Shown here in pieces: positions 291 through 30,647 of a DNA stretch of 32,789 bases (position 1 is the stretch's first letter; each line of letters opens with the position of its first letter). Under the pieces are notes generated by a model. It worked only from the letters and a program-made list of their open reading frames with translations, was not told the DNA's origin and ran no database searches. This DNA is from a virus. The stretch is from positions 1 through 32,789 of IMG/VR virus record IMGVR_UViG_3300048996_000185; one strand, written 5' to 3'. Position numbers and translations under genes: made by a program.

Positions 291-305
291 CCTACGATTC
301 AAAGG
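291..305 (+). promoter_or_regulatory. recurrent 15-bp quasi-palindrome, copy A (upstream of terminase)
   Basis: The sequence is CCTACGATTCAAAGG. It sits 51 bp before the small terminase ATG, in the divergent intergenic region 205-356. It matches the motif found again at 2732, 6256, 27809 and 27841, with half-sites CCT..GA/TC..AGG. The downstream bases TAGAGGCG resemble TGAAGGCG after the 2732 copy. It is probably a promoter element or operator; the sequence alone does not say which. Confidence 0.5.
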
Positions 306-356
306 TAGAGGCGCTGATGTGTTGATGAATCGCGGGCTGAGTAAGGGGTGTTGGCA

Positions 357-1193: not shown

Positions 1194-2738
1194 GTGGCGA
1201 CCGCGGTCCGCGCCCCCGGCTACCTCGACGGCCTCGACGCCGAGACGTTCGACCTCACCGTCTATCTCGCTCAGTTCGACGCCAAGCTCCTCGCCAAGCC
1301 CGAAGGCCGCCGCGTTCTCACGCGGCTCAACCCGCTGCTCTTCGCCCTCGTCTACGTGCGCCACCATCTCCGTGACGGCAAGGGGAAGATGACGTTCGGG
1401 GACGCGCACCTGGACTGGTGCCGGGCTGCGCGCGCCTGGATCCGACCCGCACTCCGGCCGGCCGAGCACCGCGACGCTTACATCGCGCCCAGGAACATGG
1501 GCAAGAGCACTTGGTGGTTTCTGGCGCTGCCGTTGTGGGCTGCGGCGCACGGTCATGTCCGGTTCGCCGCGGCGTTCGCGTCGTCGGCGACGCAGGCGGA
1601 GACGCACCTCGCGTCGTTCAAGCGGGAGTTGGATGTGAACCCGCTGCTGCGGCAGGACTTCCCGGACCTGTGCTCGCCGGCGAAGCGCCCGTCGGGCGGC
1701 AATGTGGCGGACACGCAGTCGATGTTCATCGCCCGCAACGGTTTCGTGTTCGCGGCCCGCGGGATCGACTCTTCCAACCTCGGCATGAAGGTCGAGGAAC
1801 GCCGCCCTGACTTGATCTTGTGCGATGACATTGAGCCGGATGAGAGCAGCTACAGCCCCGACCAGGCCCGCAAGCGACGCACCACGCTGATCGACTCGAT
1901 CTTGCCGCTCAACGTGTACGCCCGCGTCGTGATCTCTGGCACCGTGACCATGCCGGGCAGCATCATTCACGAGCTGGTCAAGCACGGCCGCGGCATCGAA
2001 AGCGCCGAATGGGTGCGTGAGGAAGGCTTCTCCGCCCACTACACGCCGCCGATCGTGCAACGTGACGACGGCACCGAGCGCAGCGTCTGGCCCGGCAAGT
2101 GGCCGCTCGCCTACCTCAAGTCCATCGAGCACACCCGGTCGTTCGCGAAGAACTACGCCAACGACCCGATGGGCGCGGACGGAGCGCTCTGGTCCCCGGA
2201 CGACTTCCGCTACCCGGGCGAGGAGGGCATCGATCCGGTGACGCACATGATGCTGTCGATCGACCCGGCGGTCACCGCGAAGAAGGGCTCGGACTACACG
2301 GGTCTGGCGGTCGTCTCCTGGTCGGCGCGCCACAAGCGGTGCACCGTGCACGCCGTGGCTGGGTTGAAGATCCAGCCGGGGCCGCTGTTGCGGGAGCGGG
2401 TCTTGGCGCTGCTCGACGAGTATCCGCAGATCGGCCTCATCCTGATCGAGGTCAACCAGGGCGGCGACACCTGGGAGGCGATCCTGCATGGCATGCCGGT
2501 GAAGGTGAAGACGGTGAACCAGTCGGAGAACAAATTCACCCGCGCGGAAGGGGTGCTGAACCACTACCAGCGCGGCCGGGTGATCCATGCCCGCAGGCTG
2601 GTGGAGGTGGAGCAGCAGATGTGTGCGTTCCCGAAAGCCCCGCATGATGACCTTGTCGATGCTGTCGGATCGGCCGTGCGGCGTTTCATCCCAACCAAGC
2701 GAGAAGTTCCCAAGGTTGGTAGCTCAAGTTACCTTTGA
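1194..2738 (+). CDS. terL: terminase large subunit (packaging ATPase and nuclease)
   Basis: This 514-residue protein is the motor that pumps DNA into the prohead and cuts it. The N-terminal ATPase shows a Walker A-like PRNMGKST at residues 99-106 and a Walker B LILCDDIE at 207-214, where the final acidic residue would be catalytic. The C-terminal RNase H-like nuclease shows three acidic clusters: SIDPAV with Asp357, LILIEVNQGG about 60 residues later, and PHDDLVDAVG at 483-492. Size and motif order are normal for the family. The GTG start follows the previous stop by 1 nt and has only a weak ribosome site, so coupling is likely. The last codons overlap a copy of the recurrent 15-bp motif. Confidence 0.92.
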   Translation: MATAVRAPGYLDGLDAETFDLTVYLAQFDAKLLAKPEGRRVLTRLNPLLFALVYVRHHLRDGKGKMTFGDAHLDWCRAARAWIRPALRPAEHRDAYIAPRNMGKSTWWFLALPLWAAAHGHVRFAAAFASSATQAETHLASFKRELDVNPLLRQDFPDLCSPAKRPSGGNVADTQSMFIARNGFVFAARGIDSSNLGMKVEERRPDLILCDDIEPDESSYSPDQARKRRTTLIDSILPLNVYARVVISGTVTMPGSIIHELVKHGRGIESAEWVREEGFSAHYTPPIVQRDDGTERSVWPGKWPLAYLKSIEHTRSFAKNYANDPMGADGALWSPDDFRYPGEEGIDPVTHMMLSIDPAVTAKKGSDYTGLAVVSWSARHKRCTVHAVAGLKIQPGPLLRERVLALLDEYPQIGLILIEVNQGGDTWEAILHGMPVKVKTVNQSENKFTRAEGVLNHYQRGRVIHARRLVEVEQQMCAFPKAPHDDLVDAVGSAVRRFIPTKREVPKVGSSSYL

Positions 2739-2746
2739 TTCCAAGG
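2732..2746 (+). promoter_or_regulatory. recurrent 15-bp quasi-palindrome, copy B (upstream of portal)
   Basis: The sequence is CCTTTGATTCCAAGG, extending to an outer ACCTT/AAGGT inverted repeat. It overlaps the last codons and stop of the large terminase gene and lies 37 bp before the portal GTG. The following TGAAGGCG resembles the bases after copy A. A TATGCT at 2755-2760 could be a -10 element, but no well-spaced -35 is evident. Confidence 0.5.
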
Positions 2747-2761
2747 TGAAGGCGTATGCTT

Positions 2762-16579: not shown

Positions 16580-19500
16580 TGACCGTCACGCAGATCCTCA
16601 CCGCCCCCGGCTCCTGGGCGATCACTCTTAAGCCGTCCACGCCGCCCGACCTGTGGGACGCCATCCAGTACTTCGGGCACATCGCGTTCATCCCAGGCCG
16701 CGCCGATCCCATCCAGTACGGCGACAATCTCCTCACCGCCGCCCGCTACGTGGGCGTCGTCCGCAAGCGCGACACCTCCGGCGATGACCGCCGCACGAAA
16801 GTCGTCGAACAGGACTACGAGCTCGGCGGCGTCGGCATGGCTATGTGGCTCGGCGACGAGGACAACAAGGGCGCCGTCATCGAAGAGCCCGTCGAGCTGA
16901 ACGGGCAGACCTTCGCCCACGCCATCCGCGCCCTCCTGCCCAACCCCGGACCGGTCACCGAAGGCACCTTCTACCCTGTCGGCGCGTCGTTCACGGGTGA
17001 AACCGCCACCGCGGCGGGCAGCAGCGCAACCGCCAACTATCTCGTCGCATCTGACGCCGACGCCGCCGACATCACCGTCGCCGACACCGTCATGCTCTAC
17101 AACTCCGGCGGCACCCTCAAAGAGGGCACCGTTTTCACGGTGACCGCCAAGCCGTCCGCGTTCGGCTTCACCAACATCACGTTCACGCCGCCCGCGCAGG
17201 CCATCACCGTCGCCGGCGACCAGTTGCGCGTGGGCACGTTCGCCACATACAGCGGACGGCACGCCTACGAATCACCGCGGCAGGCCATCCAATACGTGTG
17301 CGACACCGTCGCCGCCGCAGCCGGAACACCGGTGTCCTGGCGCGTCAACGGAGACGGCACCCTCGACGCGGGCCCCGCAGCGAGCCTGTACGTCACCAGC
17401 CCGCGGTGTGTCATCTCCAAGAAGACGGCAGGCAAGGACGTCGGTGGCCTCGAGTCCGTGTCCGGCGGCTTCGCGGTGACCCGCGACGTCGAGGACTTCA
17501 CCACCCGCGTCGTCCTCCTCGCCGAGGGGGAGGGCGAGTCGATCGCCACGGGCACCGCCGATATCAGCCCGGGCTCGAACCCTTACTCCGACATCCATGG
17601 CAACGCCCTGCGGATGACCCGCCTGGCGTCCGAGTCGGACACCACCGTCACCAACGCCGACACCCGTGCGGCCGTACTCCTCGGGCAGTACACGGGCACC
17701 CACGACGGACTGATGGTGGAGACCGACAACTACTACATCGAGGGCTCCTTCGATGTCGGCGATCAGGTGTGGGTGTACGACCCGGATTCCGGGCTCGTCG
17801 ACACCGCCAACGAGATCATCTTCCGGGGCGAGCGCCTCAACCCGATCAAGCTGCAGGTTACGGAAGCTACCTGGCCTCTCACCGAGGGCTATACAGCCGC
17901 CTTCCGGGATGGCGACGGCCGCTGGTATGACCTCACCGATTACGTCGAGTGGGACCAGGGGAACACTGTCTACGTCACGGTCGGCGGCTTCGCCCGCGCG
18001 CTGCAGCAGGCCGGTGCGGAGCCGGTCGGATCGCGGCCCAACCAGGACACGAGTGTCCCCGGCGTGCCCACGCTGGTCGAGCCGTTCGTCGGCTCCGCCT
18101 ATCTCGACTCCCGCGGCTTCACCCGCGCCCGCGTCGTCATCGCCTGGACGGCCCCGAACAACATCGACGGCTCCACCGTCCTGGACGGTGACCACTACGA
18201 GATCCGGTACGCAGTCGACGCCGACATGCTCTACCCCTCCACGTGGGCACAGGTCTCCCAGATCACGTGGGCGGCGATGGAGACGTGGGCGCAGCCGTTC
18301 GTCGCCCCCACCGGCGACTGGCAGACGATGTACGTCGCATGGGGCGAGTCCACCGCGCAACTCCAGGACTTGTCGCCCGGTGTCGGCTACGACGTGCAGA
18401 TCCGCGCCGTCGACAAGATCGGCAACACCGGCGCGTGGAGCGGCATCACCACGTTCGTGGCGTCCGAGGACAACATCCCGCCGTCCACGCCAGCCCCGCC
18501 GACAGTGGCGGGATCACGGATCGCCCTGCAGATCGTCCACGAGCTCGGCAAGAGCAGCGGCGGCACGTTCAATCTCGAGTCCGACCTGCACCATTTCGAA
18601 GTTCACGTCGACTACGAGCCGACGTTCACGCCTACCGACGACACCCTCAAGGGCAAGGTCTCCGCGACCGCAGGGATGATCCAGGCGCAGATCCCCGTCG
18701 TCTCCACCGTCCAGGTCGAAGAGACCTCCACCCGGTACGTGCGCGTCATCGCGGTCGACATCACCGGCAACAAGTCCGGACCCAGCGATGCCGCGTCCGC
18801 GACCGCCCTCCTCATCGACGACGCACACATCTCCGACCTGACCGTCAGCAAGGTCACCGCCGGGACAATCACCGCCGACTGGCTCCTCGGCGCCAGCATC
18901 CGCACCGCCACCACGGGCGCCCGCGTCGAGCTCAACGCCTCCGGGCTGCAGGCATACAACGCAGGCGGAACGCAGACCGTCAACATCGCCTCCGCCGACG
19001 GATCCGTGAACCTCCTCGGGCAGATCATCTCCGGCACCAGCGGCAGACGCCTGGAGATCATGCCAACCGCGACGTTCCTGCCCGAACTCCGCTTCTACGC
19101 CAACTCCGGAGCGAACTTCGGCTACATCAACGTCAGCTCGACCGGCACCGACGCCAACATCGGCGTCAACGGCGGCATATTCGACGACGCAGGCACCGAC
19201 GTGTACGCCCGCAGCTATCTGACGAGCGGCACCAGCGAAGTCGCGATCGTGCGCGCCGATACGCAGGAGCGGCGCGGCGCGTACACCCGCTACCAGACCA
19301 ACCAGCTAGTCACCGGATACCACTTCGCTGGCGTCGACGGCGGAATCTTCAACGCCTCAGCCACCCAGACCAAAATCGGCTGGGACAACGGCACAGCCAG
19401 TACGGCTCAGTACCTCCTGCACACCTCCGGCCGCACCCGCCACATCGGCAAGTGGGCGGACTTCCTCGCCGTCGGATCCAACGAGGGCTTGTTCACCGGC

Positions 19501-19719
19501 TCCGTTCCCGGACCCGACAGCGGCACCGGCCTGAGCCTGACGTTCGGGCCGACGATGGACTCGCAGCTGCTGCCCATCATCTCCGTCCGCGACAACCCCT
19601 CCGTCGCCAACACCCGCGGCTCGGTCATCAGCGCCAGCGACACGACCGGGTTCACCGTCCAGCTGTCCGGAACGGCGAACGGCGCCTGGTCCGTCTACTT
19701 CTGGTGCTTCAGAATCTAG
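16579..19719 (+). CDS. tail tip protein with fibronectin type III domains
   Basis: This 1046-residue protein probably forms the tail tip or hub. The N-terminal 450 residues resemble phage hub proteins of the ReqiPepy6 gp37-like kind ('IQYGDNLLTAARYVGVVRKR'), though this is a loose match. Residues about 485-625 form a fibronectin III-like domain ('VVIAWTAPNNIDGSTVLDGD', then 'YDVQIRAVDKIGNTGAWS'), and a second follows to about 745. Next comes the segment 'LTVSKVTAGTITADWLLG', then 'GARVELNASGLQAYNAGGTQ', typical of J-like central fibres. The C-terminal 250 residues are Gly/Ser-rich and strand-rich, a probable receptor-contact region. GAGG lies five bases before the ATG. Confidence 0.72.
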   Translation: MTVTQILTAPGSWAITLKPSTPPDLWDAIQYFGHIAFIPGRADPIQYGDNLLTAARYVGVVRKRDTSGDDRRTKVVEQDYELGGVGMAMWLGDEDNKGAVIEEPVELNGQTFAHAIRALLPNPGPVTEGTFYPVGASFTGETATAAGSSATANYLVASDADAADITVADTVMLYNSGGTLKEGTVFTVTAKPSAFGFTNITFTPPAQAITVAGDQLRVGTFATYSGRHAYESPRQAIQYVCDTVAAAAGTPVSWRVNGDGTLDAGPAASLYVTSPRCVISKKTAGKDVGGLESVSGGFAVTRDVEDFTTRVVLLAEGEGESIATGTADISPGSNPYSDIHGNALRMTRLASESDTTVTNADTRAAVLLGQYTGTHDGLMVETDNYYIEGSFDVGDQVWVYDPDSGLVDTANEIIFRGERLNPIKLQVTEATWPLTEGYTAAFRDGDGRWYDLTDYVEWDQGNTVYVTVGGFARALQQAGAEPVGSRPNQDTSVPGVPTLVEPFVGSAYLDSRGFTRARVVIAWTAPNNIDGSTVLDGDHYEIRYAVDADMLYPSTWAQVSQITWAAMETWAQPFVAPTGDWQTMYVAWGESTAQLQDLSPGVGYDVQIRAVDKIGNTGAWSGITTFVASEDNIPPSTPAPPTVAGSRIALQIVHELGKSSGGTFNLESDLHHFEVHVDYEPTFTPTDDTLKGKVSATAGMIQAQIPVVSTVQVEETSTRYVRVIAVDITGNKSGPSDAASATALLIDDAHISDLTVSKVTAGTITADWLLGASIRTATTGARVELNASGLQAYNAGGTQTVNIASADGSVNLLGQIISGTSGRRLEIMPTATFLPELRFYANSGANFGYINVSSTGTDANIGVNGGIFDDAGTDVYARSYLTSGTSEVAIVRADTQERRGAYTRYQTNQLVTGYHFAGVDGGIFNASATQTKIGWDNGTASTAQYLLHTSGRTRHIGKWADFLAVGSNEGLFTGSVPGPDSGTGLSLTFGPTMDSQLLPIISVRDNPSVANTRGSVISASDTTGFTVQLSGTANGAWSVYFWCFRI

Positions 19720-19728
19720 GAGCAGAGC

Positions 19729-20334
19729 ATGGCTGACACATACGAGGTCACCGGCCTCACCGAGTACTACCCGAACCCGGACACGCCCTGCTGGCTCGTC
19801 GAGGCGTTCCGCTCCGACGGCCACACGTATCGGCATATCTTCCCCAAAGCCACGCTCGCCTACCGGGCAGCCGAGTACGGAATCGACCCCGCCGACACCG
19901 ATCAGTTGATCGAGATTGTTCTGCACGAGCCGTTCGCCCCCAGCCCCGATGACGCGCTCACGGCAGCCGACGACCCGGCCATCGCCGCAGGCCTGTTCTC
20001 GCCCGCCGTCAGCGCACGCGGCACCGTCCGGGCAGGAGACACGCGCCCCACCACACTGTTCACCGCTGCGACGACGGCCGACGCCCGCGAGGCACACCTC
20101 CTGCGCATCCAGTACGCAAAAGCCCACATAGCGGAGTTCGTGATACCCAAGGGCAAGCCCGACCCGCTGAAGACCCTGCGAACGACGGCAGTGGACCGCG
20201 ACCTCGTCACAGCCCACGCCGCACGCGTAGACCAGCAACGCCTCCACCTGCAAGGCGAACGCCCCACCCGAAAGCCGGACATCGTCCTCGACACCACGAC
20301 CGCCGAACGCCTGAAGGAGGCCACCCGTGCCTGA
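19729..20334 (+). CDS. tail-associated protein of unknown function
   Basis: This 201-residue protein begins with a small strand region (MADTYEVTGLTEYYPNPDTPCW) and has a helical second half. Segments include HIFPKATLAYRAAEYGID and LLRIQYAKAHIAEFVIPKGK. AGGAG lies six bases before the ATG, and the gene overlaps the following fibre gene by 8 nt. Its place between the tip protein and a fibre gene suggests a minor tail component or a chaperone for one. No family is recognised. Confidence 0.6.
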   Translation: MADTYEVTGLTEYYPNPDTPCWLVEAFRSDGHTYRHIFPKATLAYRAAEYGIDPADTDQLIEIVLHEPFAPSPDDALTAADDPAIAAGLFSPAVSARGTVRAGDTRPTTLFTAATTADAREAHLLRIQYAKAHIAEFVIPKGKPDPLKTLRTTAVDRDLVTAHAARVDQQRLHLQGERPTRKPDIVLDTTTAERLKEATRA

Positions 20335-21151
20335 ACCGGCCACTACGAGGCTCGGCCTCTACAAGCCGCTCAACGACGGCTCCGAGAACGTCAACGTCCA
20401 GACCGACCTCAACCAGAACTTCGACAAGCTCGACCTCGCCGCGGGCTTCCAGGTCGCCACCAGCAGCACCCGGCCCGGCACCCCCTACGCGGGCAAAGGC
20501 ATCCTCGAGTCCGACAACGCCTACCGGGCCTACGTCCACAACGGCACAGCCCCAGCGTCAGCGGGATGGGTGCAGATCCCCACCGCGAGTAGCAGCTTCA
20601 ACAGCGACCTCACCCTCGTCGACGGAAAAGACGTCGTGGTCGGCACGCGGCGCACCCGCAACCAGCTGTCGACAACCACCACGACCGTCGCCAACACGAT
20701 CACGGAGACCGTCGTCGCCACCATGACGATCCCCGCCAACGACGCGATCGTCGGGGCGATCTACCGCATTGAAGCGTGGGGAATCAGCGGCGTCACCGGC
20801 ACGCCCACGTTCACCTTCCAGGGCAGACTGGGAGGCGTCGCCGGAGCGAGCATGGGCAGCACCGGAGCCATCACCGCCGGCGCCGGAACCGGGCGTTCCT
20901 GGCGGGCCCAGTTCGACCTCATCTGCGCCACCATCGGAGGCTCCGGCACCTGGCGGCCCAACCTCGCCCTGTTCCAGAACCAGACCGCCGGCGCCGGAAA
21001 CATCGGCCCCTGGCATCAGGTCAACCAGGTCGCGGCCGTCACCCGCGACACGACCATCTCCAACGCCATGGTCATCACCTGGCAGTGGGGCACCGCCAAC
21101 GCCGCGAACACCGCCACCTGCCAGGGCGTCATCGCCCAACGCATCGCCTAG
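20327..21151 (+). CDS. tail fibre-like minor tail protein
   Basis: This 274-residue protein has a modular fibre pattern. The N-terminus 'ATTRLGLYKPLNDGSENVNV', then 'DLNQNFDKLDLAAGFQ', is a recurrent tail-attachment module in actinophage fibres. It leads to a short segment with HNGTAPASAGWVQI, a linker, and a Gly/Ala-rich beta domain from about residue 110 to the end. AAGGAGG lies six bases before the GTG at 20327, which decided the start. It overlaps the preceding gene. Likely a host-binding or baseplate appendage protein. Confidence 0.68.
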   Translation: MPEPATTRLGLYKPLNDGSENVNVQTDLNQNFDKLDLAAGFQVATSSTRPGTPYAGKGILESDNAYRAYVHNGTAPASAGWVQIPTASSSFNSDLTLVDGKDVVVGTRRTRNQLSTTTTTVANTITETVVATMTIPANDAIVGAIYRIEAWGISGVTGTPTFTFQGRLGGVAGASMGSTGAITAGAGTGRSWRAQFDLICATIGGSGTWRPNLALFQNQTAGAGNIGPWHQVNQVAAVTRDTTISNAMVITWQWGTANAANTATCQGVIAQRIA

Positions 21152-21163
21152 AAGGAGATGTCC

Positions 21164-21244
21164 ATGTCCACGTTCGAAGTCATCCTGCTCATCGAGGTCG
21201 GCATCATCGCCATCGGCGCACTGCTCGGCTGGCGCCGGCCTTAA
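21164..21244 (+). CDS. 26-residue single-span membrane peptide
   Basis: This short ORF encodes a peptide beginning MSTFEVILLIEVGIIAIGAL and ending LGWRRP: one hydrophobic span followed by a positively charged tail. GAAGGAG lies six bases before the ATG at 21164. It closes the plus-strand tail operon. Its TAA shares the palindrome TTAA with the stop of the converging minus-strand gene. It could be a small holin-like or membrane-modulating peptide; the function is unknown. Confidence 0.55.
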   Translation: MSTFEVILLIEVGIIAIGALLGWRRP

Positions 21245-21423
21245 GGCTGACCGTCGGCCGTACTCATCGCATAGGTGGGTACGGACGCCGGAGCCCTCTG
21301 CGATTCGACCTCACCCTCCAGCTCGGCAACCCTCGCCTCCAGCAGCACGTTGGCTTCCAGGAGATCCATGCACTTCTTCCGCATCGCCGCATAGGCAGCC
21401 TCGATGCTGATCTGCTGGCCCAT
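21241..21423 (-). CDS. small coiled-coil protein at the end of the antisense cassette
   Basis: This 60-residue protein has a helical, heptad-like core 'YAAMRKKCMDLLEANVLLEA' followed by RVAELEGEVESQ and a short flexible tail. The ATG at 21423 overlaps the stop of the upstream glycosyltransferase gene (ATGA). It probably oligomerises; it might act as an adaptor for a glycosyltransferase, but nothing beyond co-expression supports that. Its TAA overlaps the TAA of the plus-strand peptide gene. Confidence 0.65.
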   Translation of the reverse strand: MGQQISIEAAYAAMRKKCMDLLEANVLLEARVAELEGEVESQRAPASVPTYAMSTADGQP

Positions 21424-22286
21424 CACGCCACCACCTTGTCTGCGAGCTCGCGGTACCGGTCGAGAAGGTCGGTGCCATTGAGGAACGGGTGCTGAGGGAA
21501 GAAGCTCCAGTGCGACACGATCGCGTTGCCTCGGATGACGTTCGGGCGGCCTGTCGCGAGCGGCTGGTGGATCGTGTGCCACGACTCCTCCTCGTCGGGG
21601 ACGAGGACGCCGGGCTGGGGGAGCGCTGCGTAGTCCTGGCCGCGGCTGGCGAAGCAAGAGACGGAGAATTGGGTGCCGGGCTGCAGGGGAAGGTCCTGGT
21701 AGAGGTACAAGTCTTCGACCGTGCCAGCCTCGATGTGGTCCAACAGCAGCTCGTGCAGCTTGACGGCGAAGGGCCCGTTGGCCCAGCCGACGGGGTCCAT
21801 GCAGTAGGCGCTGACGGCGCCCCACTCCAACGGCACCTTGCCGCAGGCCTGGAGGAAGTGGGAGCAGATGGCGTTGTTGAAGATGACGGGGAACACGGCG
21901 ATCGGCGCGGGCATCTCGATGCGGGCACGCACCAGGTTCTCGATCGCGTCTTCGTGCAGGTACACGACATCGTCATCGAACCGCAGGTAGACCACGTTCG
22001 GGTCGGTCATGCGCCGGTAGGCGTAGCCGGTGTTGCGCTGCTTGGGCCCCGGATGCCGGGGAATGCCGTCGGGTCGGTAGATCAGCTTGAACCACGGGAA
22101 TCGGGTGGCGAGCTCGTGGGCGTAGGCGACGTCACCCTCCTGCCCGGTCTCGTCGGTGTTCATAAAAGCCCACACCTCGTCGAGGAGGCCGCGCTCAACG
22201 TTCCGCTGCAGGTACTTGATCAGGATGCTGTAGGTCCGGAGCCGACCGTAGGGGGTCCAGGCGATGACCTTGCGTTCGTCAATCAC
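21423..22286 (-). CDS. glycosyltransferase, GT-A-like
   Basis: This 287-residue protein carries a clear metal/nucleotide-sugar motif, LRFDDDVVYL, with Asp104-Asp106 as the DxD-type site. Other marks are 'MIDERKVIAWTPYGRLRTYS' at the start and 'GPKQRNTGYAYRRMTDPNVV' before the DDD. A C-terminal stretch with HTIHQPLATGRPNVI and SHWSFFPQHPFLN is His-rich. Similar proteins occur in actinophages and Streptomyces genomes (from memory). The GTG at 22286 has AGAAGAGG five bases upstream and overlaps the preceding stop as GTGA; a much longer upstream extension of the frame was rejected. Donor and acceptor sugars cannot be told from the sequence. Confidence 0.75.
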   Translation of the reverse strand: MIDERKVIAWTPYGRLRTYSILIKYLQRNVERGLLDEVWAFMNTDETGQEGDVAYAHELATRFPWFKLIYRPDGIPRHPGPKQRNTGYAYRRMTDPNVVYLRFDDDVVYLHEDAIENLVRARIEMPAPIAVFPVIFNNAICSHFLQACGKVPLEWGAVSAYCMDPVGWANGPFAVKLHELLLDHIEAGTVEDLYLYQDLPLQPGTQFSVSCFASRGQDYAALPQPGVLVPDEEESWHTIHQPLATGRPNVIRGNAIVSHWSFFPQHPFLNGTDLLDRYRELADKVVA

Positions 22287-23035
22287 GGATGCCTCTTCTC
22301 TGTGCGGTGCCGGGGCGGCCAGATACCGGACTCGTCGGTCCACGGCAGGTCGGGGTGCAGCTTGCGGAACAGGTCGACGCTCACCGCGTGCAGCTCGCCG
22401 CGACTGTTGGACAGCTGGCCGGGGTGGACGCGCACGAAGTACAGCGGCTGCTCGATGACCGCGTACCGGGCGAACCCCGCCTTCCAGATTTTGATCCAGA
22501 ACTCCCAGTCCTCCGCGCAGCCGTAAGAGCCAGGCAGGGTGGCCTCGGGGGAGTAGCCGCCGACGGTCTGCCACGTCTCGCGCCGGATGAGCGCCTTGTC
22601 GATGAGCGGCGGCCACACTGCGAAGTCCTCCAGCGTTGCGTCCGGCAGCGACGCCTGAAGGCGGTCTGCAGCACCGAACTGCCGGGCATACGGGACGACG
22701 AAGTCGAGGCCGCCTTCGAGGGCTTTGACGCAGCGGGACACGCACTCGGGATGCAGCCGGTCATCTGCCGACGCGGTAAGTACCGCGTCGCAGCCGTCGA
22801 CGAACGCCATCTTCGCTGCGGCGTTGAGGCCGCCGGCCCAGCCGGAACGGCGACGGTTGCGCTTCAGTCGGCGCCACATGTCGGGGTGCTCGACGAGGAA
22901 TTCTCTGGTGCCGTCGTCTGACCAGTCCTCGGCCAGGTAGGCGCCTGCGGGATGCGTCTGGTCTTGGACGGAGGTGAGCATTTCCTCGATCCACGGCCGG
23001 GCGTTGCGCACGGGGATGATGACGCCGACTTTCAC
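22283..23035 (-). CDS. family 2-type glycosyltransferase
   Basis: This 250-residue protein has the GT-A fold signature: an N-terminal strand 'KVGVIIPVRNARPWIEEMLT', an acidic nucleotide-binding pair in DWSDDGT, and a TASADDRLHPE segment with Asp91-Asp92 as the DxD-like site. Later 'GSYGCAEDWEFWIKIWKAGF' is the ED motif with a catalytic-base candidate. It would transfer a sugar from a nucleotide donor in the cytoplasm. Of two adjacent GTG codons the second (23035) was chosen, because AGGGGA lies six bases upstream and it gives a GTGA overlap; 23038 is possible. No membrane span is seen. Confidence 0.82.
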   Translation of the reverse strand: MKVGVIIPVRNARPWIEEMLTSVQDQTHPAGAYLAEDWSDDGTREFLVEHPDMWRRLKRNRRRSGWAGGLNAAAKMAFVDGCDAVLTASADDRLHPECVSRCVKALEGGLDFVVPYARQFGAADRLQASLPDATLEDFAVWPPLIDKALIRRETWQTVGGYSPEATLPGSYGCAEDWEFWIKIWKAGFARYAVIEQPLYFVRVHPGQLSNSRGELHAVSVDLFRKLHPDLPWTDESGIWPPRHRTEKRHP

Positions 23036-23898
23036 CACTGTTCCCCTATCCAGTCGAGGGTGCGGCGGACGCCGTCGGTCCAGTGCATGGTGGGCGTCCA
23101 GCCTCGGACGGCGGTCACGGCGGTGTTGTCGGTGACGACGCGCTGGAGGTCCCCGGGGAGGCGTTCGTCGTGGGTGACGTCGGCTCGGGAGCCGGTCTCC
23201 AGTTCCAGGCGACTGATCAGTTCCAGTAGGCCGAGTTCGTTGTCCGGGCCGCCGCCGACCTCATAGGGCGTGGTGGTCTGGTAGGCGTCGAAGTGCTCCA
23301 CGATGTCGACGAGCAGTCGGGTGAAGTCGTCGGCGTGGAGGATGTCGCGGGATTGGGTGCCGTCACCGTGGATGGCGATGGACTTCTGGTCAAGGAAGGC
23401 GCGGAGAAACCACGTCACCCACCCGACTTCCGGGCTGCCGTCCTGGCCGGGTCCGTACACGGTGGAGGGGCGCAGGACGACGGAGGGCAGGTCGTAGAGG
23501 TCGGCGTACAGCCGCAGGTACTGCTCGCCGACGAGCTTGGACTGGCCAAGGGGGGCGATGCGCCCGTCGGCGCCCGGGTGGACCTTGACGGTGGAAGTGA
23601 AGAGGACGGGGATCCCGCCAGCGAGACGGGCTGCCTCGGCGACGTTGAACGTGCCGAGCGCGTTGTCGTGAAAGTCCTGGGCCGGATCGCGGAGGCTGAC
23701 GGAGGTGGAGCAGGAGGCGCCGAGGTGCACGATCACCTCTGGCTCGGCGCCCTCCACGGTCCGACGGAATCGGTCGAGGTCGGTGGTGGGCGTGCCGTGC
23801 CGCTTGTCTGCCGACGCGACGGTGTGGGCGTGTTCTTCGAGGCGGTGCAGCAGGTGGCCGCCGATGAACCCTGCTGCCCCGGTGACGAGAACCCTCAT
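23032..23898 (-). CDS. NAD-dependent epimerase/dehydratase-like protein lacking the catalytic Tyr
   Basis: This 288-residue extended-SDR protein starts with the Rossmann motif VTGAAGFIGG (residues 5-14), followed by VIVHLGAS and STVKVHP. 'VVLRPSTVYGPGQDGSPEVG' and 'AIHGDGTQSRDILHADDFTR' are typical of sugar-nucleotide epimerases. The usual YxxxK pair is altered: the segment reads APLGQSKLVGE, so Lys121 is present but the expected Tyr117 is Leu (codon CTT). The protein may be inactive, regulatory, or use another acid. The ATG at 23898 overlaps the preceding stop (ATGA), which fixes the start against a longer frame at 23919. Confidence 0.8.
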   Translation of the reverse strand: MRVLVTGAAGFIGGHLLHRLEEHAHTVASADKRHGTPTTDLDRFRRTVEGAEPEVIVHLGASCSTSVSLRDPAQDFHDNALGTFNVAEAARLAGGIPVLFTSTVKVHPGADGRIAPLGQSKLVGEQYLRLYADLYDLPSVVLRPSTVYGPGQDGSPEVGWVTWFLRAFLDQKSIAIHGDGTQSRDILHADDFTRLLVDIVEHFDAYQTTTPYEVGGGPDNELGLLELISRLELETGSRADVTHDERLPGDLQRVVTDNTAVTAVRGWTPTMHWTDGVRRTLDWIGEQW

Positions 23899-24116
23899 GG
23901 CCCGATCGCCTCCTGCCATGCCACGCTGCCTCGCGCCTTCTCGCCTGCGTGCAGGGTGACCAGGGCGGCTAGGAAGTGCGTCTGCGCTTCGAGTAGTTCC
24001 ATCTGCGATGGAGGCCAGTTGCCTTCAGCGTCGACGCCCTGCTCGCGCTGCTCGTCCGTGACGGGCTGGCCGGCGAGCAGACGCTCACCCTTACGGAAGT
24101 GCTCCGGGCCGTTTAT
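23895..24116 (-). CDS. small protein with a probable AUA start codon
   Basis: This 73-residue protein begins (M)NGPEHFRKGERLLAG and has a second helix, WPPSQMELLEAQTHFLAALV. It resembles short helical phage proteins that begin 'GPEHY..AE.LL' (from memory). No ATG, GTG or TTG lies at the expected start. Instead an ATA at 24116 overlaps the upstream gene's TAA as ATAA, mirroring the ATGA overlaps of the neighbours, and has a strong GGAGAGGGGG four to five bases upstream. Alternatives are GTG 24155 (86 residues, no good ribosome site) or the internal ATG at Met39. Its stop overlaps the next ATG as ATGA. The function is unknown. Confidence 0.6.
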   Translation of the reverse strand: MNGPEHFRKGERLLAGQPVTDEQREQGVDAEGNWPPSQMELLEAQTHFLAALVTLHAGEKARGSVAWQEAIGP

Positions 24117-25126
24117 GACGTCCCCCTCTCCGGCACCGTGAGTGCCGTCTCCCACTGCCGGTTGAGCGCCTGAAGGATCGACCCGGATGCTTCCGCGCGG
24201 GCCGCCATGCCGATGCGCTGCCGCAGTCCGGGATCGTCCGCGAGAACTTTGAGGTAGCGGCCCCACTCGTGCTCGCGCTTGACGAGGAACCCGTTCTCGC
24301 CGTGGCGGATGACTTGCCGGTACGGTTCGATGTCCGACGCGATCAGTGGGATGCCGAGCATGCTCGACTCCAGGAACTTCGTCGGATACTTCGCAGCGTT
24401 GAACGTGGTGTCCCGGTACGGCGCCACCCAGACGTCGAAGCCCTTCACGGCATGCAGATACTCGCTGAAGTTCTGCACCCAGCCCAGCGCCCCCACCCGC
24501 TTGCCCCTCAGCCCGCAAGCAAGAGCCGTCCGCGAGTCGATGCCGACCAGCTTCACCGCCACCCCGCCGGGCCGCCGGTACTCGGCGATCCGGTTCAAGG
24601 CCCGCACCGCCTCCGGCAGCTCATGCACCGTCGACGCCGTTCCTGCCCAGCCCACCGACAGCTCCTCGGGGCTGTAGTCGCGGACGTCGCCCAGGTACTG
24701 CGCGGGCAGGCCGTTGAGGACGACGCGCACGTCGTCGTGGTGTTCGCGCAGTGCAGCGGCGAGCGGCTCCGAGCAGCAGGTGACTGTGTCCGCCACCTGC
24801 ATGTTGGCGATCAGCCGCTTTTGGATCTCGCGGTTCGACCAGAGCTGGTGGGCGACGGTGTTGCTCGGGTCGATGTGGAAGTAGTCGTCGTCGAGGTCCA
24901 TCACCAGCCGGATCCCCGCGTCGCGCATTTCCCGCCAGGTCCGGGACGGTTCGGGCTGCACGACCCGGCAGCCGACCACCACGTCGAGCCCCAGCTCGCG
25001 CCAGTCCTCGGGAAGCCGCCGTCCGGCCGAGACCTGGTGGCCGAGCCAGTCGAGGGACATGGCGGGGAGGATGCCGCGGTACATCCCTGACCCGTGGTCG
25101 TCGGCCGTCCAGAAATGGATGCGCAT
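24113..25126 (-). CDS. family 4-type glycosyltransferase
   Basis: This 337-residue protein fits the GT-B fold. The N-terminal half has 'DDHGSGMYRGILPAMSL' and MDLDDDYFHI. The C-terminal half opens with LSVGWAGTASTVHELP and carries the nucleotide-sugar-binding signature 'YPTKFLESSMLGIPLIASDI', continuing to EPYRQVI and a GENGFLV turn (residues about 257-292). Glu263 and Glu277 are candidates for the family's paired acidic residues. It is retaining by family, with unknown donor. The ATG at 25126 overlaps the epimerase stop as ATGA. The central third prefers G-ending codons while its flanks prefer C-ending ones, perhaps a mosaic history. Confidence 0.82.
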   Translation of the reverse strand: MRIHFWTADDHGSGMYRGILPAMSLDWLGHQVSAGRRLPEDWRELGLDVVVGCRVVQPEPSRTWREMRDAGIRLVMDLDDDYFHIDPSNTVAHQLWSNREIQKRLIANMQVADTVTCCSEPLAAALREHHDDVRVVLNGLPAQYLGDVRDYSPEELSVGWAGTASTVHELPEAVRALNRIAEYRRPGGVAVKLVGIDSRTALACGLRGKRVGALGWVQNFSEYLHAVKGFDVWVAPYRDTTFNAAKYPTKFLESSMLGIPLIASDIEPYRQVIRHGENGFLVKREHEWGRYLKVLADDPGLRQRIGMAARAEASGSILQALNRQWETALTVPERGTS

Positions 25127-26079
25127 CAGGCCGCCAGATGGCCGGGCAGCCAGCTGCTCGCGTAGTAGTCGACGGTCCGCCGGATGCCCTCGTCGAGGGG
25201 TACGAAGTCGGTGGCGTCGAGGCCGATCTGCTTGAGCGTGTCGGTGTCGGAGGTGACGACCGCGTTGGGGATTTCGCCGGGCCGCATGGGCAGGTGGGTG
25301 ATCGCGACGGGTTCGTGGCCGGTGAGGTTGGCGGCGTATTCGGCGACGAGGCGGGCGATGTCGTTGACGGTCACGGAGTCGAGCGGCCCGACTTCGACGG
25401 GGCGTTCCGTGGGCCCGTGTTCGGCGGTGTGCTCTAGGGCTTCGACGAAGGCGCGGGCGGCGTCTTCGACGTACACGCAGTCGCTGATCTGGGTGCCGTC
25501 GCCGTACACCTCGATGGGGGCGCCGGTGAGGGCTCGGCAGGAGAGGGCGGGGAGGATCTTCCTCACCTTGCTCGTGCCGTAGGGGCGGGCCACGCTCTGG
25601 CCGGGGCCGTAGGCGTTGACCGGGCGGACGATGGTGATCTGGCCGCCGTCGCGGTAGAGGTTGTACATGCGGGCGAGGTCTTCGGCCGCCGACTTGGTGA
25701 TCGTGTAGCAGCCGGTGCCGATGAGACGAAAGGCGTGATTGCCCACCCCGGCGTAGACCGTCGGCAGGTTGTACTGCGTCGCGGCTTCGAAAACGTTGAG
25801 GCTGCCGATGATGTTCGTCTCTGCAGACGGGCGCGGGTTGCTGATCGTCTCCTGCGTGCCGAGGACGGCGGCGAGGTGGATGATCCCGTCGCAGTGCGCA
25901 GCGGCCTCCGTCACGGCGGTGGCGTCACGGACGTCGCCGAGGAAGAACTCCTCACCGTCGGCGAGATGCTGGCGGCGGTCCTGGTGGTCCATGACGAGCA
26001 CCTGATGGCCGCGCGTGAGGAGTTCGCGCCTAATCCACGTACCGATGAACCCGGCGCCGCCGGTCACGAGGGTCTTCAT
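25126..26079 (-). CDS. NAD-dependent sugar-nucleotide epimerase/dehydratase
   Basis: This 317-residue extended SDR begins with VTGGAGFIGT (residues 5-14). It has DVRDATA for adenine binding, HLAAVLG, an intact YTITK active site (Tyr125, Lys129), 'IVRPVNAYGPGQSVARPYGT' and 'EVYGDGTQISDCVYVEDAAR'. The pattern matches UDP-glucose 4-epimerase-like enzymes, which would supply an activated sugar to the linked glycosyltransferases; the exact substrate is unknown. The ATG at 26079 overlaps the preceding stop as ATGA and has GGAAAGG upstream. It is the intact counterpart of the altered SDR at 23032. Confidence 0.87.
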   Translation of the reverse strand: MKTLVTGGAGFIGTWIRRELLTRGHQVLVMDHQDRRQHLADGEEFFLGDVRDATAVTEAAAHCDGIIHLAAVLGTQETISNPRPSAETNIIGSLNVFEAATQYNLPTVYAGVGNHAFRLIGTGCYTITKSAAEDLARMYNLYRDGGQITIVRPVNAYGPGQSVARPYGTSKVRKILPALSCRALTGAPIEVYGDGTQISDCVYVEDAARAFVEALEHTAEHGPTERPVEVGPLDSVTVNDIARLVAEYAANLTGHEPVAITHLPMRPGEIPNAVVTSDTDTLKQIGLDATDFVPLDEGIRRTVDYYASSWLPGHLAA

Positions 26080-26636
26080 GCTGTGGTGCCTTTCCAGTGG
26101 GGGCCGCGTAGGGCGGGCGAGACGTCAGCGGTCGCCCCGATGCCGGGTGGAAGGACTCCACCGAGCGGCTTGACCTTGGGGCGCGGCGGCGTCTGAGGGC
26201 GGTCGAAGCTGGCGAGGATCTCGTCGGTCAGACCGTGCGCGTAACCGAGGTCGAGCAATTCCGGGCACTCGTTGAGGTTGTCGGTGACGGGGTCGTCGCA
26301 GTCGCCTTGGGTGCCGCATCCGTGGCAGGGCGCTTCAAACGCCCACTCCCATTCGGTTGCCAGCCGGTGGCGGGCCAGGATGCGGCGGTCGGCTTCGCAG
26401 CGGCGCAGCACGGCAGCTGGATCGTGCATGACCATGTGGTCAGCGTTCAGATGCCCGTTGTACTGATTGTCCAGGATGCAGAGCACCTTGCCCTGCACGA
26501 CGAGTGCGGCTTCGGGGTCGTCACCCCAGTGGCGTGGCTCGGGGTGATCGGCGCACCAGGGACCCTCGGTGGCATCGCGTGCAACCTCCTCGACCTGGGC
26601 TACCTGTTGGGCGATCCACTCGGGCAGGCAGGTCAC
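26076..26636 (-). CDS. DUF6221-like protein
   Basis: This 186-residue protein starts MTCLPEWIAQQVAQVEEVAR and has the segment 'HMVMHDPAAVLRRCEADRRI' followed by LARHRLA. This resembles DUF6221, common in Streptomyces and their phages. A Cys cluster, CHGCGTQGDCDDP (about residues 105-117), with a later Cys could bind zinc. The C-terminal 50 residues are Pro-rich and probably unstructured. The GTG at 26636 overlaps the upstream stop as GTGA with GGGAGG upstream, and was preferred to GTG 26648. The function is unknown. Confidence 0.72.
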   Translation of the reverse strand: MTCLPEWIAQQVAQVEEVARDATEGPWCADHPEPRHWGDDPEAALVVQGKVLCILDNQYNGHLNADHMVMHDPAAVLRRCEADRRILARHRLATEWEWAFEAPCHGCGTQGDCDDPVTDNLNECPELLDLGYAHGLTDEILASFDRPQTPPRPKVKPLGGVLPPGIGATADVSPALRGPHWKGTTA

Positions 26637-26818
26637 GTCGCCTCCCACGGCGAGGCGCTCTGCGCGGCGCGGGTGACGGCATCCCAGAACTCTCGGGCGG
26701 CGGCCTCGGGTTCGTAGCGGGGCCCAGTCTCGATCTGCCCGTCAGGGCGGACGCCGACGAGGAGCGTGCCGCCGTCCTCGTACAGGGCGACCACGAAGTC
26801 GGACTGAGGCGCGGTCAC
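26633..26818 (-). CDS. small hypothetical protein
   Basis: This 61-residue protein has a strand-like first half (SDFVVALYEDGGTLLVGVRP) and a helical second half (EAAAREFWDAVTRAA). GAGGAGG lies four bases before the GTG at 26818, and both ends overlap neighbours as GTGA. No family is recognised. The coupled position and clean ribosome site support it being real. Confidence 0.65.
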   Translation of the reverse strand: MTAPQSDFVVALYEDGGTLLVGVRPDGQIETGPRYEPEAAAREFWDAVTRAAQSASPWEAT

Positions 26819-27198
26819 GGCGCCTCCTCGTGGATGATCTCCATGACCCGCCTCATCGCCGCGCGGTAGCCAGCCGGGTAGCTGTCCGGGAGAGGCGCTG
26901 CGATGGCTCGGATATCGGCGATGCAGCGGATTCGGTAGATCGCGGCGTCCGCCGCCCGCAGTTCCTCAACAGCACCCTTGTGGTCTGCGATTACACACTG
27001 CTGAGCGGTCTCCTGCGCACCGAGAATGGCTTCGGCCATCCGAAGACGACGAGCTGGCGTGGCCCGATTCCACTTCCAGATCCATTGGGCTGGAGTGGGC
27101 ACGACGCGACTATCGGTGTACGGCTCCTCGCCTTCATGGAACTGGGCCAGCTGGGCTTCCGGTTCTGTTGGATCGGACGTGCTCTCAGGATCGTTCAT
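26815..27198 (-). CDS. hypothetical helical protein
   Basis: This 127-residue protein has a disordered acidic N-terminus, then 'TPAQWIWKWNRATPARRLRM' and a long helical region of Ala/Glu/Arg repeats (AILGAQETAQQCVIADHKGA). A 'QWIW.WN..TP..R' segment recurs in Streptomyces phage proteins of unknown function (from memory). The ATG at 27198 overlaps the upstream stop as ATGA with AGGAG six bases upstream. A GTG at 27222 with GAGGAG five bases upstream would add eight residues. The stop overlaps the next GTG. Confidence 0.65.
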   Translation of the reverse strand: MNDPESTSDPTEPEAQLAQFHEGEEPYTDSRVVPTPAQWIWKWNRATPARRLRMAEAILGAQETAQQCVIADHKGAVEELRAADAAIYRIRCIADIRAIAAPLPDSYPAGYRAAMRRVMEIIHEEAP

Positions 27199-27587
27199 CG
27201 CGAACTCCTGCTGCTCGGCCACGGCGTCTCCTCGACTGGCAGGATGTGGGCGCCTTCGACGCAATGGCTGGAGATGCAGCGACCAAGGGGCGTGGCGTCC
27301 AACGCGGCGTGTACGGCGCGCCAGATGACCGCGTTGCGGTGCGCAGGGTCAGGCGGCAGGTAGGCGCCGAGTGCGCGGATGTACTCGTACACAGCGTCGT
27401 AAGCGAGCTGGCGACGATCGGGCTGAACCGGAAGAGCGGAGCTCAACTCATCCTCGGTAGGCGGCTCGGCGTGCCCCTCGTTCGCGGAGGAGTCCTCGGC
27501 CTCGGGCCCGTGGCTGTCGGGGCAGGGGGTCGCGTTGCCGTAGCCGTCCGCGTGTTTCACGGCGCATCCGATCTCGGGCTCGCTCAT
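27195..27587 (-). CDS. hypothetical protein
   Basis: This 130-residue protein has an acidic, low-complexity first half with three Cys/His-containing spots and a helical second half with 'RRQLAYDAVYEYIRALGAYL' and 'HRNAVIWRAVHAALDATPLG'. The ATG at 27587 overlaps the stop of the membrane peptide gene (ATGA) with GGGAG seven to eight bases upstream; a longer upstream frame opening at 27890 crosses that peptide gene and the promoter region and was rejected. No function is recognised. Confidence 0.62.
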   Translation of the reverse strand: MSEPEIGCAVKHADGYGNATPCPDSHGPEAEDSSANEGHAEPPTEDELSSALPVQPDRRQLAYDAVYEYIRALGAYLPPDPAHRNAVIWRAVHAALDATPLGRCISSHCVEGAHILPVEETPWPSSRSSR

Positions 27588-27691
27588 CGGCTGCTCCCGA
27601 CTGCGGGCACGTAGTCGATGCGCGCCTCCACGGGCTGCGCGAGGACGAGGTAGGCGAAGAGCAGCGCGGTAGCTGCGGCGATCAGGATCAT
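27584..27691 (-). CDS. 35-residue single-span membrane peptide
   Basis: This short peptide starts MILIAAATALLFAYLVLAQP, one hydrophobic span, followed by a polar tail VEARIDYVPAVGSSR. CAGGAG lies six bases before the ATG at 27691, and the stop overlaps the next ATG (ATGA). It is the first gene of the antisense cassette. A longer same-frame ORF from 27775 is Pro-rich and overlaps the leader hairpin. It may act at the membrane; the function is unknown. Confidence 0.58.
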   Translation of the reverse strand: MILIAAATALLFAYLVLAQPVEARIDYVPAVGSSR

Positions 27692-27735
27692 GCCGGGCTC
27701 CTGTGCGGGTGGTGTGCGGGTGGGCGCGGGTTGGT

Positions 27736-27775
27736 GTGGCGGGGAGGTAGACCCGCACGGCCACATCCCCGCCAC
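27736..27775 (-). promoter_or_regulatory. 9-bp stem-loop in the leader of the antisense cassette
   Basis: GTGGCGGGG (27736-27744) and CCCCGCCAC (27767-27775) form a perfect 9-bp stem around a 22-nt loop. It lies between the motif at 27809-27823 and the first minus-strand start at 27691. It could be an untranslated-leader structure or an attenuator for the cassette. Confidence 0.4.
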
Positions 27776-27808
27776 GGGTCCCTGAGCTAGAACCCAACCC
27801 CAACGATA

Positions 27809-27823
27809 CCTGTGATTCGTAGG
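27809..27823. promoter_or_regulatory. recurrent 15-bp quasi-palindrome, copy D (divergent region)
   Basis: CCTGTGATTCGTAGG has symmetric CCT..GA/TC..AGG ends. Read on the minus strand it is CCTACGAATCACAGG, very close to copy A. It lies 117 bp upstream of the minus-strand cassette and 87 bp upstream of the plus-strand gene at 27911, so it could serve either. Confidence 0.5.
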
Positions 27824-27840
27824 TGAAATCAGGTAATGGG

Positions 27841-27855
27841 TCTACGATTTGAAGG
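27841..27855 (+). promoter_or_regulatory. recurrent 15-bp quasi-palindrome, copy D' (upstream of lysis block)
   Basis: TCTACGATTTGAAGG is followed by TGCCTGTG and lies 55 bp before the GTG at 27911, the same distance range as copies A and C from their genes. With copy D it forms a pair 17 bp apart in the divergent region 27692-27910. Confidence 0.5.
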
Positions 27856-27910
27856 TGCCTGTGTTTCGGGAGTTCAACACCGATGCGCAACCCAGCCGAA
27901 AGGCCCGCCC

Positions 27911-28399
27911 GTGACCGTCCACATCTGCTCGCTCATCCTCGAAGAGCCACAGACCATCCCCGACGACGGCCAATACCACGTCGTGCGCTTCCCCTTCGGC
28001 ACCGCCGAGTCCTACGACGACCACGGCATGCACCAAGTCGCCCAGCCCGACGGCTACCGGGTCAGCCTGTGGCGTACCGACGACCGCGCCGGACTCATCT
28101 GGCCCGCCGTCGAAGGCTGGGCAACCCTCACCGCGGTCATCCAGTGGGAAGACGGCCAGTACACGGAGCTCCGCGACCGCTTCGAACGCGACCCGCTGAA
28201 CCTCTCCACCGGCGCGGACTCGACAGCGACGGACCACCGCGCCCGCACCCCCGGCCTCAACCCGTTCACCAAGCACCACGAACTGTTCGTCCACCCCGGC
28301 ACGCCGATCGCGTTCAAGGCAGCCCACAACTCCAGCCGCCCCGAACGGATCACGCACGCCCAGTTCAAAGTCGCCATCCACCCAGTCGAGGAGGCCTGA
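27911..28399 (+). CDS. hypothetical protein preceding the endolysin
   Basis: This 162-residue strand-rich protein begins MTVHICSLILEEPQTIPDDG and contains 'HVVRFPFGTAESYDDHGMHQ', YRVSLWRTDDRAGLIWP and a C-terminal 'HAQFKVAIHPVEEA'. The GTG at 27911 has GAAAGG about seven bases upstream; the longer frame from 27836 runs through the copy D' motif and was rejected. A GAGGAGG near its 3' end serves the amidase gene. Its position suggests a virion or lysis-associated protein, but no family is recognised. Confidence 0.65.
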   Translation: MTVHICSLILEEPQTIPDDGQYHVVRFPFGTAESYDDHGMHQVAQPDGYRVSLWRTDDRAGLIWPAVEGWATLTAVIQWEDGQYTELRDRFERDPLNLSTGADSTATDHRARTPGLNPFTKHHELFVHPGTPIAFKAAHNSSRPERITHAQFKVAIHPVEEA

Positions 28400-29651: not shown

Positions 29652-29682
29652 TCCTGCCCCATGCAAGCGGCTCGGAGGTGGC

Positions 29683-29949
29683 ATGGACGCCGCCATGGTC
29701 ACGGCAATAGCCGCGCTCATCGGCGCACCCGTGGCCGGAGCGGCAGCCGTGTACGGCTCCCGAGCCGCAGGACGGGCCCAACGGGAAGGCGGAGTCATCG
29801 GCGGCTACAACAGCCTGACGGACCAGCTCCAGGAGGAACGCAAGGAGCTGCGCGCCGACGTGGCCGCACTCCGCCTGGAACTAGCCACAGAGAAGGCAGA
29901 GACGGCACGCCTGAAGCTGCTAGTCCAGTCCCTCGGAGGGCAACCGTGA
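29683..29949 (+). CDS. second small membrane protein, holin/spanin-like
   Basis: This 88-residue protein has one N-terminal hydrophobic span (about 5-25: '[20 protein letters not shown]') followed by a charged, heptad-rich coiled coil (40-85, including [20 protein letters not shown]). The arrangement suits a holin or anti-holin, or an accessory lysis protein. GGAGG lies four to five bases before the ATG. Its stop overlaps the GTG of the next gene (GTGA). Confidence 0.62.
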
Positions 29950-30647
29950 CCCGCGCCGAGCTCGCCCTCGCCCGCCGCTGGAAGACCATCGCCATCGTCG
30001 CCACCCTTCTGTTCCTCGGCGGGGGAGTCGCCCTCTCCCTCCTCCTGGTCCAGCGCGAGGCGACGGCCCGCCAGCAAGTCGCACACGAAGCAGACCTCCG
30101 CGGCACCGCCGTCTCCACCCTCGCCGGCGATGTACGCCAACTCCGCTCCCAGCTCAAGGCGAAGGGCGAGAAGCCTTCAGTGCCGGACCCGTCGAAGGCA
30201 GTCGAGGATCTCCCCGACCGGGCGGAAGTCCCCGTGCCGATCCCTGGACCGCCTGGCCCGAAGGGCAGCAAGGGCGACAGCGGCAAACCGGCCCCCACCA
30301 TCACGCCCAACGACGGGAGTCCCGGTTCTCCGGGCGCTCCGGGCGTCGACTCCACAGTGCCCGGCCCGCAAGGGCCGCAGGGCGAACCAGGCAAGCCGGG
30401 CGCGGATGGGCCCCAAGGTGAGCAAGGCCCCTCCGGGGAGCGCGGGGAGCAAGGCCCTCAGGGGCCTGCGCCATCCGGCTGGGCGTACACCGACGGGCAG
30501 GGTACCGCCTACGAATGCACCCCCGACGGCGACAGCTCCTCCCACTACACGTGCCGCGCCACCAGCAGTTCGGAATCGTCGTCGCAGAGCCGGAACCTCC
30601 TGGGCGCTGGGGTGCTCGCGATGACCGCGGCATACAGGAGGCTGTGA
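29946..30647 (+). CDS. membrane-anchored collagen-like protein
   Basis: This 233-residue protein has an N-terminal hydrophobic span at about 15-35, a helical stalk (38-75), and Gly-X-Y triplets from 101. These run [13 protein letters not shown], then after a 12-residue break [10 protein letters not shown], then an almost continuous block to 179 (including [20 protein letters not shown]). It ends in a small domain, [17 protein letters not shown], with two Cys (191 and 203) that could form a disulfide. It would trimerise as a rod at a membrane or virion surface. GGAGGG lies five bases before the GTG. Collagen-like repeats are common in phage fibres; here the span at the N-terminus and the lysis neighbours make a host-envelope role possible. 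Confidence 0.72.

Follow-up and report, generated by a model that had tools for sequence, protein, structure and literature searches.

An exchangeable antisense cassette of putative glycan genes with a shared late-type site and a conserved leader RNA in a lineage of Streptomyces phages

We analyzed a 32.8-kb viral record that holds a phage late region (IMG/VR record IMGVR_UViG_3300048996_000185, 32,789 nucleotides, henceforth referred to as the window) and, within it, a minus-strand block of putative glycan-pathway genes. The late region is ordered terminase, portal, tail, tail tip (16579-19719), two more tail genes (19729-20334 and 20327-21151), the antisense block and the lysis genes. Open reading frame (ORF) listing with start and stop tracing placed twelve minus-strand genes at 21241-27691, with neighbors overlapping by 1-7 bases, in line with the twelve-gene antisense cassette between tail and lysis genes described in the initial annotation. 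The cassette is flanked by the plus-strand tail gene at 20327-21151 and by plus-strand lysis-side genes that start at 27911 and 28402, the latter encoding an amidase endolysin. In the order of transcription, the cassette comprises g12 (27584..27691), a 35-amino-acid peptide with one hydrophobic segment; the small proteins g11 (27195..27587; phrog_4125, 4.8e-6), g10 (26815..27198) and g09 (26633..26818); the DUF6221 protein g08 (26076..26636); SDR2 (g07, 25126..26079), an extended SDR resembling nucleotide-sugar dehydratases/epimerases; GT4 (g06, 24113..25126), a GT4-type glycosyltransferase; g05 (23895..24116), a 73-amino-acid protein; SDR1 (g04, 23032..23898), an extended SDR resembling nucleotide-sugar epimerases/dehydratases; GT2 (g03, 22283..23038), a GT2-family glycosyltransferase; GT-A (g02, 21423..22286), a 287-amino-acid predicted glycosyltransferase of the GT-A fold; and g01 (21241..21423), a 60-amino-acid coiled-coil-like protein. 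We found no simple terminator between g01 and the tail gene.

We assessed the enzyme assignments with family models and structure prediction. g03 matches PF00535 (Glycos_transf_2) at 8.3e-15 and 55.6 bits (cut-off 23.3), which places it in the GT2 family. g06 is GT4-type, matching PF13692 at 3.8e-11, with 43.9 bits for Glyco_trans_1_4 (cut-off 27) and 38 bits for Glycos_transf_1 (cut-off 26.4), and it also matches phrog_7162 (3.5e-45). SDR1 and SDR2 are Rossmann proteins of the Epimerase family (PF01370, 3.3e-40 and 2.5e-40, about 138 bits each), and the best PDB relative of SDR1 is CDP-tyvelose 2-epimerase (4.9e-32). g08 matches PF19730 at 2.9e-13. The GT2, GT4, SDR and DUF6221 identities first read from the sequence are supported by Pfam. 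g02 has no match in Pfam, PHROG or NCBIfam, and searching PDB sequences with the GT-A profile yielded chance-level matches only. An AlphaFold model of g02 built on 47 sequences reached a pLDDT of 95 and a pTM of 0.92 (pLDDT was 54 with 12 sequences), and the top Foldseek matches of this model in the PDB are GT-A enzymes (best E 2.1e-6, TM about 0.5). The residues D104-D105-D106 are invariant in the 47 sequences and fit the acidic DxD-type metal-binding motif. The model therefore assigns g02, metal motif included, to the predicted GT-A fold glycosyltransferases, as its initial label "GT-A-like" had proposed. g05, a member of a family with the signature MTGPEHYxEGERLL, starts with ATA in the window and mostly with ATG or GTG in relatives; the gene caller skipped it, and because of this start codon it is possibly translated poorly in the window. 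None of the ten cassette proteins scanned (the set without g05 and g12) matched the anti-phage defense proteins of PADLOC-DB. In three relatives, SDR2 carries an in-frame insertion (L018:6604-8280, L021:6879-8570 and L053:6271-7947); the L018 insertion matches intein-splicing and LAGLIDADG families, and this is an unusual location for an intein.

We searched for relatives of the cassette and found 11 with the GT4 protein and, using the GT-A protein profile, 43 viral contigs and five Streptomyces genome contigs, among them those of S. capoamus JCM 4253 and S. stelliscabiei DSM 41803. A DNA-similarity search of a phage collection returned only a 40-base endolysin match, and at that sensitivity the clade is absent from the collection. 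In nearly all loci the cassette lies antisense with the same tail gene on one side and the endolysin on the other (the surroundings differ in L051 and L059). The common gene order, SDR2-GT4-(SDR1-GT2)-GT-A-g01, runs against the direction of the tail genes. SDR2, GT4 and GT-A occur together in all 37 complete cassettes of this kind (type A) and g01 occurs in 34 of them, so this gene order is far beyond chance. The other genes are less constant: g12 is found in 26 of the 37 cassettes, the optional GT2 in 19, the optional SDR1 in 16, g09 in 15 and the DUF6221 gene in 4, and g11 is found in three cassettes counting the window. g10 is limited to the window, with no relative in the set. The cassette thus consists of a fixed enzyme core and changing small genes. 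The exact twelve-gene set, which the initial annotation had proposed to look for elsewhere, occurs in no relative that we mapped; L010/L033 shares all seven genes of the enzyme region. The outcome that the initial annotation had named as refuting its reading, in which relatives keep scattered single genes only, did not occur. As for the suggestion that some small proteins could be dedicated partners, it is borne out only by g01 and, partially, by g12; the other small genes turn over quickly. We found no description of the cassette or of its leader in the literature, which we covered in part.

Some cassettes hold additional genes. HNH-type endonuclease ORFs lie inside four of them (L027:10876-11385, L043:10891-11469 and similar ORFs in L019 and L045; HNH_3/NUMOD4 where scanned) and are a possible route for cassette exchange. 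Extra decorating enzymes include a rhamnosyl O-methyltransferase/CmcI-family protein (L008:8712-9347) and a sulfotransferase (L051:9351-10001).

We collected relatives lacking GT-A by a scan with the tail-tip protein. These often carry other antisense cassettes (types B and C) in the same slot. One alternative make-up adds small GT2s, methyltransferases and a 2OG-Fe(II) oxygenase to GT4, and another combines GT4 with a methyltransferase and a GT2. GT4 is present in cassettes of types A, B and C alike, and most type B loci have g01 Hidden Markov Model matches. On the tail-tip tree, the distribution of type A versus types B and C requires nine or more changes on supported branches, and that of presence versus absence requires three. 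The slot therefore swaps cassette types between close relatives. Four relatives without a cassette have a single GT4-type gene at another place; in one of these it is on the late strand immediately ahead of head-completion-like genes (L115:16-777).

A conserved site emerged from the aligned DNA upstream of the first cassette gene. It is near-palindromic, CTACGAWTCNNAGGT, and we searched for it with the pattern CTACGANTNNNAGGT. The window contains three matches where 0.14 are expected, and none of 100 shuffles reaches three. One copy, CTACGAATCACAGGT, lies ahead of the cassette (27808..27822, minus strand), where the alignment also places a -10-like TATCGT (27803..27808, minus strand; TANNNT in most relatives). 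The second, CTACGATTTGAAGGT, lies ahead of the lysis genes (27842..27856, plus strand), and these two copies form a divergent pair that faces the cassette and the lysis genes. The third, CTACGATTCAAAGGT, precedes the first late gene (at 357) and the terminase (292..306, plus strand), and a degenerate copy with two mismatches precedes the portal gene (2733..2747, plus strand). Statistics for the site outside the window derive from related phages. The site is present in 21 of 23 cassette-bearing records (the reversed control pattern gave none) and in six of seven type B records, and both the core and the site were found in most of the 48 loci. Thirteen sites that occur as a separate single copy were fetched from relatives, and 10 of them lie ahead of the small-terminase homologue. 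Among 17 relatives without a cassette in the slot, two have a divergent match and both deviate from the AWTC core. The simplest reading is that the site is a phage late-promoter or activator element tying the cassette to the terminase and lysis genes. Because the site is shared by the terminase, the lysis genes and the cassette, late expression of the cassette is predicted.

The stretch that separates the site from the first cassette gene holds a 5' leader RNA of roughly 115 bases (27692..27807, minus strand), which precedes type A, B and C cassettes. An alignment of 41 sequences, drawn from related phages, defines two hairpins, H1 (27776-27795) and H2 (27736-27775), the latter with the loop GUGCGGGU at 27751-27758. 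In this alignment 95.6% of the cells of named pairs are paired and 11 of 22 pairs show double changes; the counts use the alignment from which the structure itself was derived, and the shuffle and slide controls are clear, with none of 500 shuffles reaching as many compensated cells and sliding of the partners destroying the signal. ACCCGC(A/G)C copies lie downstream in the leader (the first at 27724-27731), and the H2 loop can pair with the downstream ACCCGCAC copy near the ribosome-binding site. The first base of the loop covaries with its partner (G/C in 37 sequences, U/A in five, one exception), and a pseudoknot is likely. Folded alone, the leader of the window is not unusual (z -1.0), and support for the structure thus rests on covariation and not on folding energy. 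A scan of 27500-28100 against Rfam gave no match at E ≤ 1. Across 121 Streptomyces genomes, the leader model matched the genome with the cassette prophage and one other place only. At this other place (L167:11816-12450, E 0.004) the match lies ahead of an unrelated 185-amino-acid antisense gene beside an endolysin, which suggests that cargo of other kinds can sit behind the control unit. The leader probably controls translation or elongation; its possible ligands include sugars, nucleotide sugars and late phage proteins. We tentatively propose, with less than even confidence, that it represents a new class of regulatory RNA, built of two hairpins and a pseudoknot by the ribosome-binding site, which together with the site would form a cargo-independent control unit for a glycan-pathway exchange slot. 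The shared site and the conserved leader go beyond what the initial annotation had described.

The best reading of the cassette is, in our judgment, a late cytoplasmic glycan pathway that modifies virion proteins, and we favor it with modest confidence. An exchangeable glycan-assembly cassette would occupy a fixed antisense slot in this Streptomyces phage lineage, and the shared cis-element would activate it jointly with the structural and lysis genes. SDR2, plus SDR1 if present, would produce or alter a nucleotide sugar. GT4 would transfer the first sugar onto an acceptor common to these phages, and is the natural candidate for this step because it is kept through all exchanges. GT-A and the optional GT2 would lengthen the glycan. 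Replacing the remaining genes would alter it, with the exchanged enzymes setting the outer sugars. The acceptor would most likely be a virion protein, because the enzymes look cytoplasmic and late, and the first candidate is the adjacent tail protein (20327-21151). No multi-pass membrane protein was found among the 398 called proteins of the 37 cassettes (the nearest is one 56-amino-acid protein with two hydrophobic segments), and a lipid-linked exported glycan pathway therefore appears not to be encoded.

This logic has a parallel in mycobacteriophages Che8, Corndog and Myrna, for which virion glycosylation by phage glycosyltransferases has been reported (Freeman et al. 2023, as cited in PMC12363180). 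As far as that citation describes them, they share with our system phage-encoded glycosyltransferases in actinobacteriophages, and the logic that we propose here is one of soluble enzymes acting late on structural proteins. By this analogy, late soluble enzymes next to tail genes fit the modification of virion proteins. What sets the window and its relatives apart from those phages is the arrangement: several enzymes are encoded antisense in one constant slot, are swapped together, and have a late-type site and a leader RNA of their own.

Several observations weigh against virion glycosylation. The way in which the known virion-glycosylating enzymes are encoded differs from that seen here; g02 has no match in mycobacteriophage records and is not homologous to those enzymes at the sensitivity used. 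The chemistry of both SDRs is uncertain because, by alignment, each is without one residue of the usual Ser/Thr-Tyr-Lys triad: in SDR1 the catalytic Tyr is replaced by a conserved Leu, with P-L-G-x-S-K kept in 21 homologues, and SDR2 retains YxxxK and is missing the Ser/Thr from the motif that usually holds one. In favor of virion glycosylation, the N-terminal domain of the 20327-type tail protein and the glycosyltransferases are both present in 50 loci and both absent in 15, with three exceptions; on the tree, however, this co-occurrence is not significant (two to three independent pairs), and the link of the tail protein to the cassette is suggestive only. The site itself could instead bind a repressor, which would likewise couple the cassette to the terminase and lysis genes, or it could denote a feature different from late promoters.

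The initial annotation had left two targets, the virion and the host surface. A dedicated glycan cassette is upheld, and the evidence leans to the virion because of the shared cis-element, the absence of multi-pass proteins and the lack of correlation with tail fibers; the host-surface option is retained as possible, if rather unlikely. There, soluble enzymes would decorate a cytoplasmic cell-wall precursor such as teichoic acid in the lysogen or the infected cell and so keep other phages from adsorbing. A precedent is TarP, a soluble enzyme from an S. aureus prophage that acts on wall teichoic acid (PMC9650247), PHROGs classes the GT4 relative as a moron, and cassette swapping resembles serotype switching. 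Many relatives are temperate (integrase in 12 of 20 related records), five cassettes lie in Streptomyces genome contigs, and exchangeable glycosyltransferases in temperate phages are a feature shared with TarP and the gtr serotype-conversion modules. However, a site common to terminase and lysis promoters predicts late-gene timing and not expression in a quiet lysogen, and such a control element sets the cassette apart from those modules. Membrane partners of the Gtr kind are also lacking: a flippase and polytopic glycosyltransferase beside a bactoprenol glucosyltransferase were seen in none of the 37 cassettes, nor was a polymerase. Furthermore, we tested cassette type against tail-fiber type (C-terminal domain of the 20327 protein) and saw no correlation, contrary to what receptor masking would predict.

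A generic antisense slot, in which the site and leader drive any insert and glycan enzymes are the commonest cargo, benefiting themselves or the host, appears improbable to us. The leader ahead of the unrelated gene in L167 fits such a slot, as does the turnover of small genes, HNH ORFs and the intein within cassettes, whereas the constancy of GT4, SDR2 and GT-A in complete type A cassettes and the survival of GT4 through changes of cassette type do not. We regard late intracellular transfer of sugar to something else (phage DNA, for example, or a protein of the host) as very improbable. Glycosyltransferases modify DNA in some phages, and the cassette enzymes look soluble; late timing and exchangeable decorating enzymes, however, fit DNA modification poorly. 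DNA hypermodification is further disfavored by the absence of thymidylate-synthase/hydroxymethylase family proteins from 20 related records, in a search whose positive control matched. Tet_JBP was likewise not detected in related records, in a search whose control gave no match either.

More distant sugar clusters share parts of this organization. The gene 5/6 region of Streptomyces phages KimJongPhill and Zuko encodes a UDP-glucose dehydrogenase, a methyltransferase and a glycosyltransferase before the terminase; it resembles the cassette in having a GT4 homologue (32-33% identity) in a sugar cluster adjoining structural genes, and differs in lying on the terminase strand with other partners and no GT-A homologue found there. 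The only distant phage homologue of g02 is gp354 of Synechococcus phage B23 (22% identity), inside a glycosyltransferase/nucleotidyltransferase cluster; this is a large cyanophage with another operon.

Phage glycosyltransferases are usually annotated singly and their targets are seldom known; here, a whole predicted pathway is exchanged as one module behind a constant control region. The shared late-type site is a specific argument for looking at the virion and not at the host wall, and the leader RNA adds a new candidate to the known regulatory elements. Changing the surface glycans all at once would have consequences for adsorption and for stability in the environment. Because carriers include named Streptomyces genomes, prophage induction, proteomics and RNA probing may be feasible. 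Downstream of the endolysin, the window encodes a predicted protein (29661-30647) that matches collagen repeats below threshold and might be a substrate for glycosylation. In 13 relatives, the lysis region starts with a homologue of papain-like cysteine proteases (weak Pfam match), e.g., L030:5165-5998.

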